Shown here: positions 4,380 through 50,736 of the stretch, in pieces | Layout: the number at the start of each line of letters is the position of its first letter | Numbering within the stretch: position 1 is the first letter of the stretch | Source: Pseudomonadota bacterium | GTDB taxonomy: Bacteria > Desulfobacterota > Syntrophorhabdia > Syntrophorhabdales > Syntrophorhabdaceae | Assembly: GCA_026388255.1 (NCBI GenBank) | Contig: JAPLKC010000036.1 | Coordinates: forward strand, 1-64,000 | DNA length: 64,000 nucleotides | Direction of reading: 5' to 3' | Position numbers and translations under genes: made by a program | The notes under the pieces: generated by a model | Told to the model about the DNA's origin: nothing | Database searches by the model: none | Seen by the model: the letters and a program-made list of their open reading frames with translations, nothing else

Positions 4380-4621
4380 TGTTTGACTCTATTCAGAGCA
4401 TATAGAATAAACATCAGAAAATCAATTAGGTTGTATCCGTTCTCTTCTTTTAAAAATATTCAGAAGTGAATCTAAATGTGGTAATTAATGTTTTTCAAAC
4501 TTTGTAAGGCTGTTTAGGTGGTTGTACTACCTAATTCCAAATAAAACAAATCCCGTTCTGAAATACTCGACGCAAAGAGTTCAGGGTTGCCAGTATTCCC
4601 TGCAAGAAGCTCGTAAATGTC

Positions 4622-4650
4622 TTGACACATTGTTTCTAAATATCTACAAT
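4622..4650 (+). promoter_or_regulatory. sigma70-type promoter of the ParB-like gene
   Basis: TTGACA (4622-4627), a 17-base spacer, then TACAAT (4645-4650): full -35 match and 5 of 6 at -10. Transcription would start near 4657, giving a leader of about 100 nt that contains the GTGAATA repeats at 4678-4738. The bases 4380-4621 before it hold no gene that I can support. Confidence 0.7.
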
Positions 4651-4677
4651 AAATAGCGACATCAAGGAGGATTAAAG

Positions 4678-4738
4678 GCAGTGAATAGTAGATAGTGAAT
4701 GGTTACGAAAGCGGTGAATAGGTTACGACTATTCACTG
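4678..4738. repeat. GTGAATA repeat cluster, upstream of ParB-like gene
   Basis: Direct copies of GTGAATA (cagtgaatag, agtgaatggt, ggtgaatagg) are followed by the inverted form actattcactg, so the leader RNA can fold into a hairpin ahead of the GGGGG ribosome site at about 4751. The same repeat occurs at 5626-5856, 17957-17974, 47751-47839 and 50006-50100. Confidence 0.75.
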
Positions 4739-4760
4739 AAATAATAAAGAGGGGGTAATT

Positions 4761-5621
4761 ATGGCAACGAAGAAGACAACTGTAAATCTTGAGTTCTTGT
4801 ACATTTCCGTAGACAAGATTGTAGTGCTGGAACAGGTGAGATCAAACATTGATATCGAAACAGACTCGTTCAAATCGCTCACGCAGTCGATTAAAGACAA
4901 AGGCATCTTAGAACCGCTTATTGTAACCGGACAGGATGATGTGACATATGTCCTCATTTGCGGGGAGAGACGTCTGATGGCCGCCCGGCAATTAGGGTTT
5001 GAATCCGTACCAATACGGGTTATAGAAGCAGGTAAGGAATTGGGTGATACCATAGCCCTTCAACTTACAGAACATCCTGGAAAAGAGTATGATGTGGATG
5101 GGGTGATGAATATACTGGTGGAGATTCAGCTTAGACCCGAAAACCTATCAGACGAAATTACATTCACATTGAATGTAATTACTCAAATCTCTGCAAAGTC
5201 TTATCCTACCTTATTCCGCACAATTTCACTTTTAAAACTTTCTCCTGAAATTCAGACAGCAATTTCGGCAGGAAATATCCCTGTTTCTCAGGGTTACCTC
5301 TTTGCTTCCAATCTTGATTGTCCTGATCTCATGCAAATATTTACCGACATTTTAAAAACACCGGTGACCTATAAAACTCTGGAAAGCAGACTCATAGCAT
5401 ACAAAAAAGCTAAACCTGACCCGAATAATACAAAACCCAAATCCGTTAAAAAGCAGGTTAAAGGCCTGGTATTCATTAGGACGGATTTTGATAAAGGCCT
5501 TGGAACCTATATACGGGAAGATGTTGAAAAATATCTCTATGAACTTCAGGTTTTCTGTGATTATGTCCAGCAGCAGATGCCCAAAATCCCATACGGCAAG
5601 AAAAGACCGCCACAGGTGTGA
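4761..5621 (+). CDS. ParB/Spo0J-like N-terminal domain protein
   Basis: A 286-residue protein with the ParB N-terminal fold: GILEPLIV (about 49-55), then the nucleotide-binding box GERRLMAARQLG (68-79) followed by VPIRVI. In ParB proteins this region binds CTP or, in some, has nuclease activity. The middle (about 140-190) is helical and could include a DNA-binding helix-turn-helix; the C-terminus (KKRPPQV) does not look like the leucine-rich ParB dimer domain. No parA is nearby, so it is not the chromosome partition gene. It has its own promoter and repeat-rich leader, and repeats of the same family follow its stop codon. A decayed second copy of its C-terminal half, with the same trailing repeats, lies at 50107-50667, which suggests the gene and repeats move or are copied together. 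Function unknown. Confidence 0.85.
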   Translation: MATKKTTVNLEFLYISVDKIVVLEQVRSNIDIETDSFKSLTQSIKDKGILEPLIVTGQDDVTYVLICGERRLMAARQLGFESVPIRVIEAGKELGDTIALQLTEHPGKEYDVDGVMNILVEIQLRPENLSDEITFTLNVITQISAKSYPTLFRTISLLKLSPEIQTAISAGNIPVSQGYLFASNLDCPDLMQIFTDILKTPVTYKTLESRLIAYKKAKPDPNNTKPKSVKKQVKGLVFIRTDFDKGLGTYIREDVEKYLYELQVFCDYVQQQMPKIPYGKKRPPQV

Positions 5622-5625
5622 GAAA

Positions 5626-5856
5626 GACAGTGAATGGCGAATAGTGGAAAAGATAAGCGGACTTGGGAAGCGGGAAAAACCGGGAAGTAAGAGAACCCGC
5701 GAAGCCCCCGCGAAGCGAGGATAGCCGCAAAGGAAGCTGACGTGAAGCGGGAAAAGACAAGTTGCGGGTTGTAGGGGCAGTAGACAGTGAATAAACTGTT
5801 AGAGGTTGCCCCTGAATTTATTTTACTATTCACTAACGACTATTCACTATTCACTG
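5626..5856. repeat. GTGAATA repeat region after the ParB-like gene
   Basis: Starts with gacagtgaatggcgaatag at 5626 and ends with tattcactaacgactattc and further inverted copies at 5826-5856, enclosing about 180 bases rich in short GCGGGAA/CCGCGAAG motifs. The outer parts are inverted repeats of each other. The rest of the gap to 6031 holds no supportable gene; a short open tail reading IFRNAIGKVDDMAIKV and a stop at 5934-5936 may be the end of a lost gene but is too short to name. Confidence 0.65.
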
Positions 5857-6031
5857 CAATTCATAGAATCCGTGAGGCGCAAACGATATTTCGTAATGCC
5901 ATTGGCAAGGTAGATGATATGGCCATTAAGGTATAAAAAATGTGTCAATACAAAGAACATACTGTATAAATAGCAATGATTCCAAAAAGGTTGTATAATT
6001 CCAAAGATAATTGTTATTTTTAGGGGTCTGT

Positions 6032-31124: not shown

Positions 31125-31163
31125 AAGGCTGGAAAAGCATATGCTTTTCCAGCCTTTTAACTT
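31125..31163 (+). terminator. rho-independent terminator
   Basis: AAGGCTGGAAAAGCAT and its exact complement directly adjoining it (31125-31156, a 32-base perfect palindrome), followed by TTAACTTTTTT. Ends the Gly/Ala-rich protein transcript, 26 bases after its stop. Confidence 0.9.
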
Positions 31164-47452: not shown

Positions 47453-47746
47453 ATGAAAATTACGAAAGAAGCTGTCGGACACATAGCCCATCTGGCCAGG
47501 CTTGAACTTGACCCGGAAGAAATAGAGGCTTATACGGTACAGGTAGACAATATTCTCCGGTATATGGATAAACTCAATGTGCTCGACACGGAAGGGATTG
47601 AGCCGACAAGCCATGCCATGCCGGTTGTCTGTGTACTCAGAGAAGACCGGGCGGGAAACTCTTTCAGCGCTGATGAGTCAACTCTAAACGCACCGGAAAA
47701 GAAAGGCGGTTTTTTCAAAGTCCCGCCGATTATTGAAGTAGATTAA
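47453..47746 (+). CDS. gatC: Asp/Glu-tRNA(Asn/Gln) amidotransferase subunit C
   Basis: 97 residues with the GatC signature VGHIAHLARLELDPEEIE and a C-terminal region ending GGFFKVPPIIEVD. It stabilises GatA in the complex that converts misacylated Glu-tRNA(Gln) or Asp-tRNA(Asn). gatA follows after 109 bases that hold an inverted repeat. gatB is not in the window. Confidence 0.95.
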   Translation: MKITKEAVGHIAHLARLELDPEEIEAYTVQVDNILRYMDKLNVLDTEGIEPTSHAMPVVCVLREDRAGNSFSADESTLNAPEKKGGFFKVPPIIEVD

Positions 47747-47750
47747 AGGC

Positions 47751-47839
47751 AGTGAATAGTCGTTAGTGAATAGTATATAGCACATAGCTTTTTTACTGTT
47801 CACTGAATACTATTCACTATTCACTAACGACTATTCACT
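47751..47839. repeat. 24-bp perfect inverted repeat of the GTGAATA family between gatC and gatA
   Basis: Left arm agtgaatagtcgttagtgaa plus tagt (47751-47774) and its exact complement at 47816-47839, separated by 41 bases that themselves contain ctgttcactgaatac and a further tattcac. The arms are built from GTGAATA units. It starts four bases after the gatC stop. Confidence 0.85.
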
Positions 47840-50005: not shown

Positions 50006-50100
50006 TACAGTAAATAGTCTTTAGTCAAAAATCTATTCACCATTCACTGCTTTTTTCACATTTTCTGCCCTTTTAACTATTCACTATCGACTATTCACTG
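50006..50100. repeat. GTGAATA repeat cluster beside the ParB-like pseudogene
   Basis: Contains cagtaaatagtctttagtca, then inverted copies ctattcaccattcactgc and actattcactatcgactatt. It touches the 3' end of the ParB-like pseudogene (50107), exactly as repeats follow the intact copy at 5621; the junction ...GTGTGAGA-GA-A-ACAGTGAATAG (minus strand) matches that at 5616-5636. Confidence 0.75.
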
Positions 50101-50106
50101 TTTCTC

Positions 50107-50667
50107 TCACACTTGTGGCGGTCTTTTCTTACCGTATGGGATGTTAGGCACCTGTTGTTGGACATAATCACAGAAAACCTGTAGATCATAGAGGAGCTTT
50201 TCAACGTCTTCTCTTACATAAGTTCCAAGACCTTTTTCAAAAGCTGTTTTTATTGATGCAAGACCTTTAGCCTGTTTCTTCACGGATACGGGCTTTGTAT
50301 TATTCGGGTCAGGTTTGGGTTTTTTATATGCGGTGAGTCTGCTCTCTAATGATATATAGGTTACAGGCGTTTTTAAAATGTCGGTAAATATTTGCATGAG
50401 GTCGGGGCAATCAAGGTTTGCGGCAAAAAGATAACCCTGAGAAACAGGGAGATTTCCTGACCTGATTGCCCGCGTGTTCATGCCTCGAAGCTTGCTTCGA
50501 AATGGTTTCATCGTTGATGTCTTTTCTCAAGTACTAAGTAGTTTCCCGCGGGTAGTTCGTTTCAGCCTGAATTTCAGGAGAAAGTTTTAAAAGTGAAATT
50601 GTGCGGAACAAGGTAGGATAAGACTTTGCAGAGATTTTAACAATTTCATTCAATGTGAATGAAATTT
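50107..50667 (-). pseudogene. decayed second copy of the ParB-like gene
   Basis: The last 117 codons (to 50107) are close to the C-terminus of the 4761-5621 protein: LPVSQGYLFAANLDCPDLMQ, KTPVTYISLESRLTAYKKPK and IPYGKKRPPQV, with roughly one residue in eight changed. Further upstream the DNA (minus strand, about 50667-50567) matches codons 131-170 of the intact gene. Between them lie about 100 bases of foreign repeat (cccgcgggtagttc and cctcgaagcttgcttcgaaa, 50470-50566), and everything before codon 131 is missing. An open frame from 50511 starts inside the inserted repeat. Confidence 0.85.
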
Positions 50668-50717
50668 CTTCCGGCAGGAACATTACCTTGGCCTTACAAA
50701 AGCATTCCTGCCGGAAG
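50668..50717 (-). repeat. 13-bp inverted repeat after the molybdenum hydroxylase gene
   Basis: CTTCCGGCAGGAA (50668-50680) and its exact complement (50705-50717) with a 24-base loop. It follows the stop of the molybdopterin subunit gene by 19 bases and abuts the ParB-like pseudogene. No T-run, so it is more likely a repeat end or RNA-stabilising hairpin than a classic terminator. Confidence 0.65.
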
Positions 50718-50736
50718 CGTATGATATACTGCTTTG

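Follow-up and report, generated by a model that had tools for sequence, protein, structure and literature searches.

The ParB-like gene near the start of the window (the whole 64,000-nucleotide stretch of DNA that we analysed) most likely belongs to an amplified family of orphan ParB/Noc/KorB-type proteins. Judging by comparison of the copies, each gene in this family would carry its own parS-like site, and cassettes holding matched pairs of site and DNA-reading residues would be shuffled between copies. Nearly every copy or fragment contains a perfect palindrome of 20-25 bp within the coding sequence at one fixed codon, where it reaches from just upstream into the helix-turn-helix codons. Very probably the surrounding gene encodes the protein that binds this palindrome, a prediction that follows from covariation with the recognition residues, from prediction across genera and from the alignment of these residues with those of known ParB-parS pairs. 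The source genome very probably holds dozens of such matched, largely distinct protein-site pairs. The features of the window are collected in the table.

Table. Features of the ParB-like family in the window (cassette and recognition-helix coordinates are our own mapping)
Feature	Position	Strand	Remarks
Leader common to group-1 copies	4541..4760	+	blastn of 6 copies
Sigma-70 consensus promoter in leader	4622-4627 and 4645-4650		TTGACA, 17 bp, TACAAT, then RBS
GTGAATA repeats in leader	4681..4736		direct and inverted
ParB-like gene, 286 aa	4761..5621	+	23-codon in-frame deletion at ~5068-5071, removing box III (ENLQR)
Specificity cassette	5103..5240	+	variable codons equivalent to residues 143-150, palindrome, recognition-helix codons
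Private perfect palindrome of the window gene	5156..5180, centre 5168		AATTACATTCA cat TGAATGTAATT; putative own binding site
Recognition-helix codons of the window gene	5199-5240		SYPTLFRTISLLKL
3' flank	5622..5857		GTGAATA/GTGAATG direct and inverted repeats, GTGAAGC-like motifs
Stand-alone inverted GTGAATA array	47741..47838		no ParB-like gene
GTGAATA repeats past the stop of the decayed copy	50026..50106		
Decayed ParB-like copy, 5'-truncated	50107..50680	-	C-terminal 134 aa open, disrupted upstream
Private palindrome of the decayed copy	50642..50666, centre 50654		AATTTCATTCA NNN TGAATGAAATT

The product of the window gene matches ParB_N (PF02195, E 6.9e-13) and, weakly, HTH_ParB in Pfam, and its closest NCBIfam similarity is Noc. 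An AlphaFold2 model built from the family alignment (pLDDT 80) gave Foldseek matches to ParB, Noc and KorB. The GERR box II and the ENLQR box III are invariant in the family alignments, and on these motifs the family proteins are probably CTP clamps. The window copy is an exception. A sequence-only reading of this DNA had called the gene intact, which comparison with other full copies contradicts: 23 codons present in those copies (NLQREDLNPIDQAKGILSFIQAK, including box III) are absent here, so by this comparison the window gene is an in-frame deletion derivative. Because box III is missing, its protein is probably not a working CTP clamp. The same reading had placed a decayed sister copy at 50 kb, and this copy is indeed there; its palindrome is still perfect despite the broken gene. 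An inverted repeat (TTCCGGCAGGAA...TTCCTGCCGGAA, 50669-50722) lies at its truncated 5′ end. Elsewhere in the window, the longest perfect palindrome (31125-31156, 16-bp arms, AAGGCTGGAAAAGCAT) is unrelated to the ParB-like family.

The gene is highly amplified. The window protein had 87 matches in a translated search of the draft genome (3.83 Mb), 49 matches to the profile were strong, and the genome holds about 40-50 copies and pieces, of which some 16-18 have long open frames. Contig ends often fall inside a ParB-like copy, a hint that the assembly breaks at them. Strong matches number 41 in the sister species and 37 in each of two genomes from another genus. Within the bacterial family, copies occur in 7 of 39 genomes, with 37-49 strong matches in the four richest, and one further relative (69% identity) was found in a MAG contig, JAPLKD010000126.1. 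This patchy distribution is compatible with spread by transfer or recombination. Plasmid and phage records held no close relatives at 60% identity or more, and viral contigs searched with a plasmid-type protein gave no match. The median dN/dS of the N-terminal domain, 0.09, indicates strong purifying selection. When the 86 neighbouring ORFs of 22 copies were compared with one another, no recurrent partner gene emerged, and there is therefore no ParA beside the ParB-like copies. Domain searches and the same neighbourhoods also yielded no transposase or recombinase within the unit, in agreement with the sequence-only reading.

Several isolated gene fragments (L059:4606, L063, L065, L071-L075) all keep the palindrome and the recognition-helix codons, and the L075 fragment reads in frame into the apparent end of a type I restriction specificity gene. 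A different family of dispersed repeats, CTCTGCGTACTCGAACGACCG..GAGTGGGCGAGAGG, occurs in the leaders of L042, L044 and L047 and around L065, L071 and L073, often beside group-2 copies and isolated cores.

The palindromes differ greatly from copy to copy (AGAAATTGCTATCACtGTGATAGCAATTTCT, AGAAATTGCAGACACtGTGTCTGCAATTTCT and TCCGCGAAACtGTTTCGCGGA are examples). Among 131 distinct cores from several genomes there are 95 different arms, and all four bases are used at positions 4, 5 and 6 from the centre, where 98, 99 and 100% of the bases, respectively, are Watson-Crick paired. All nine pairs form in 97 of 118 palindromes; some are imperfect. Decayed cores retain a perfect palindrome. Chance is a poor explanation, as a 396-kb sample of other stretches together with the window (460 kb) contained nine perfect odd palindromes, against one to four in shuffled sequences; seven of the nine are of the ParB-like class, and five of these seven lie outside both window copies. 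Only 2 of 79 ordinary ParB genes have such odd palindromes. G-T pairs are nearly absent at the variable positions, which argues for a DNA site rather than an RNA structure.

The sequence of each palindrome is matched by the DNA-reading residues of its protein. Across 99 cores with open frames (residues in L036 numbering, our conversion), residue 175 is Arg where palindrome position 3 is C and Asn where it is A in 93. Positions 4 and 5 follow residues 170-171 (YP with TT, TR with GA, IQ with CT, IM with AA/AT), position 7 follows residue 143, position 6 residue 145, and position 8 residues 147/150. The covarying residues are not adjacent in the DNA to their palindrome bases, and residues that are nearer (such as 164, 166 and 167) or farther off show little or no covariation. 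Since the nearer residues mostly lack covariation, simple linkage does not explain the pattern. A table built from two species of one genus (G000 and G001) was then applied to another genus (G266 and G314). It predicted position 3 in 40 of 41 cases (98%, against a 49% baseline), position 5 in 34 of 36 (94% against 56%) and position 7 in 37 of 38 (97% against 68%); paralogues are not independent, so these statistics overstate certainty, an effect that the cross-genus design lessens and does not remove. Control residues were mostly near baseline, the strongest exception being 66% against 41% at position 4. Linkage as the cause of the covariation is thus mostly rejected, by the control residues and the cross-genus prediction together.

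Two of these residues, 170 and 175, align with DNA contacts of a known ParB. By the shared GKS motif, aligned by eye, residues 170, 175 and 176 correspond to R173, N178 and T179 of Caulobacter ParB. In the crystal structure, R173 and N178 make contacts with parS; the positions that switch ParB specificity include R173 and T179 (PMC7383237). A GKS..N recognition helix is present in the helix-turn-helix domain of the family, with N or R at position 175, and in the model, which has helices at 153-166 and 170-181, residues 170, 175 and 176 fall on the recognition helix.

By sequence comparison, the N-terminal part, the specificity cassette and the C-terminal part reassort freely between copies. 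Pairwise protein distances of the three parts are uncorrelated (Spearman 0.0 to 0.14), whereas agreement within a part reaches 0.79 for the N-terminal and 0.66 for the C-terminal part. Uncorrelated distances between parts indicate that copies exchange cassettes, and each exchange would move a matched pair, because the site and the recognition residues share one stretch.

Palindromes of this kind also occur away from the genes. A pattern search found six outside the recognised copies, either within decayed cores or as part of a repeated intergenic module of two or three palindromes at fixed spacing. Of 18 base pairs in the module palindromes, 100% are paired and 13 covary, a result reached in 0 of 500 shuffles. 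A covariance model found the module in all four genomes searched and at about two dozen places in the source genome, a count that includes some places listed on both strands. Read from the sequence, the modules stand upstream of varied genes (toxins, hemerythrin, nitroreductase, rubrerythrin and others), between about 20 and 670 nt from the ORF where one was found, and 8 of 17 have an attC-like GTTGGAAC/GTTRRRC motif 69-77 nt upstream. For half-sites of the modules, a match to a gene-borne palindrome from the same genome was seen in 8 of 23 cases (2.0 expected) and in 6 of 18 (0.8 expected). The module loci, with accessory genes downstream, are L217-L231, L301:18543, L313:7436 and 11667, and L320-L349. 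Two broken integron integrase genes lie in the same genome (G000 C45:2251-3193 and C53:12258-13195; L350-L353).

The sequence-only reading had centred on the GTGAATA repeats, suggesting that gene and repeats are a single copied unit with a conserved junction and that the protein could be the reader of the repeats. The repeats around the gene are real: GTGAATA occurs in the leader and past the stop, it is found 21 times in the window as a whole against 9 expected (as many in 0 of 100 shuffles), and it recurs behind the stop of the decayed copy. The genome has 33 tandem GTGAATA arrays; 14 are close to a ParB-like copy, against about one expected by chance, and 19 are away from any. The junction is not constant, as GTGAATA lies within 300 bp of only 17 of the 29 intact 3′ ends, the others having GTGAAGC or none, and related genomes have different short-period repeats after the stop in its place. 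Because many arrays are geneless and many genes arrayless, the strict unit of gene and GTGAATA fails, on grounds that the reading had itself named as refuting it. The same counts, and the many different palindromes of the GTGAATA-bearing copies, led us to reject GTGAATA as the protein's own site. What survives is a much-copied gene without a transposase and with a left end common to six copies, for which GTGAATA is not required, and a protein that very probably does read a travelling DNA element, to go by the sequences compared; that element would be the in-gene palindrome, which the reading had missed. We regard GTGAATA and the other short repeats as passengers, short tandem repeats that settle at gene ends, and liken the arrays to the intergenic heptamer repeats of Beggiatoaceae (PMC4679880). 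At the post-stop place, copies in G266 and G314 (e.g. L275, L276 and L287) have GGAGAGC, GGATTGCAGATTTC, GGGGTCAA and others.

How might such a system work? A dimer would bind the palindrome within its own gene and load there as a CTP-dependent clamp, as in ParB, Noc and VirB. The clamp may limit transcription of its own gene, giving autoregulation, and the same proteins may act on cognate palindromes in the dispersed intergenic modules, many of them at the starts of integron cassettes. Taken as a whole, a self-sited specificity system of this kind, with site and recognition helix in one coding stretch, cassette copying that moves the matched pair, and operators in integron-cassette leaders, is a tentative reading to which we give a little under an even chance.

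Two alternatives give the family a different purpose. The copies may descend from plasmid ParB-parS systems and serve chromosome organisation or partition, their sites being small centromeres or Noc-like loading sites instead of operators. The similarity to Noc fits this reading, as do the parAB operons of cyanobacterial and Thermus plasmids with in-gene palindromes about 50 codons past ENLQR. We nevertheless find it doubtful, as the copies have no ParA beside them, dozens of specificities are odd for one shared chromosomal function, and the modules are intergenic, many of them near attC-like ends. Alternatively, gene, site and end repeats may move together as a mobile or selfish element, perhaps via host recombination, as the sequence-only reading had suggested. 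We consider this unlikely. The amplification in four genomes, the patchy distribution, the left end shared by six copies (a leader of about 200 bp, starting at 4540/4541 by blastn), the many copies at contig ends and the decayed copies all agree with mobility. Against it, the unit has no transposase or recombinase attached, and its right ends vary, none being common to the copies. Neither terminal repeats nor a target duplication nor a clean empty site was seen; in the sister species, where one locus was checked, the gene next door stands without a copy, but synteny is also broken there. Purifying selection on the N-terminal domain is strong, and the parts of the gene reassort instead of moving as one unit.

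The remaining two alternatives concern the palindrome itself. It could be a recombination or cleavage hot spot, with a ParB-fold nuclease cutting its own site and driving cassette exchange; the fact that the cassette reassorts freely against its two flanks would suit this, as would the isolated palindrome-centred cores scattered through the genome. No nuclease motif was identified, the CTPase box II and III motifs are conserved in the other full copies, and binding already explains the covariation with the recognition residues, making a hot spot improbable. Finally, an RNA hairpin or a pure coding constraint could produce a palindrome that is transcribed and translated within the gene. This we consider highly improbable. 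The G-U counts and the symmetry kept in non-coding copies (decayed cores and intergenic modules) led us to reject RNA structure, and the symmetric loop of 1-3 nt and the covariation with distant recognition residues also speak against this origin.

A parS site inside parB is already known for single systems. ParBm of a Thermus thermophilus megaplasmid is reported to bind a palindrome inside its own gene specifically in vitro (PMC4409726), and so shares with this family the ParB fold and a palindromic site within the coding sequence. It differs in being one copy with parA and no amplified family, and its published 14-bp site is at codon 221, not at the cassette or +50 place. Even palindromes built on an AACGTT core occupy the corresponding place in 5 of the 79 ordinary ParB genes, these five coming from cyanobacteria and Thermus. 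Most of 24 plasmid parB genes have an ..AAC|GTT.. palindrome with differing arms of up to 17 bp, about 50-52 codons past ENLQR, with the HTH motif RLPLL following about 28 codons later; the palindrome is missing in Deinococcus and a few others. Arms of 9 or 10 bp were reached in 2 of 200 shuffled plasmid parB genes. The parB genes of cyanobacterial, Thermus and Allomeiothermus plasmids thus resemble the family in that a perfect palindrome, variable in sequence, sits at one fixed position (+50 to +52 codons; +55 in L036) shortly before the HTH. They differ in the even-length AAC|GTT centre, in having one or two places per plasmid and, in most, in a ParA/AAA ATPase gene directly upstream. We found no report of a function for the +50-codon palindrome in the open-access literature. 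Among these plasmid genes (L354-L377, L133, L150, L156, L175, L176), similar HTH residues seem paired with similar arms, for example TS with a CCAAAAC arm in two phyla.

Other known systems share less. In REPIN/RAYT a protein gene is likewise accompanied by short, dispersed palindromes. There, however, the protein (RAYT) is a Y1 transposase and the REP is constant, whereas each ParB-like copy bears a palindrome of its own and no domain of a transposase was found. Noc, KorB and VirB are orphan ParB-type regulators with the ParB fold and palindromic sites away from the gene (PMC7383237, PMC8429893, PMC10770331), and the CTP clamp has been demonstrated for Noc and VirB (PMC8429893, PMC10770331). 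They are single genes with one site class, and no in-gene private site or family of dozens of specificities is reported for them in the open-access literature. Measured against that literature, the new elements here are an orphan family that has dozens of differing in-gene sites within a single chromosome, its recognition code, the cassette shuffling and the modules. We know of no described kind of system in which site and recognition helix lie in one coding stretch and would move together as a matched pair.

If our reading is correct, a genome could create dozens of private regulators and retain them, and the matching operators would lie in the leaders of integron cassettes, a possible added layer of regulation for these cassettes. 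Site and reader can change together, because one cassette holds both. Recognition codes are usually inferred from scattered regulators whose sites are uncertain. Here, about a hundred matched pairs on one scaffold, each with the site inside the gene, would make specificity change in ParB/Noc proteins directly readable and testable. The fixed place of the palindrome may also hint at where to seek the parS of many plasmids that lack known centromeres.
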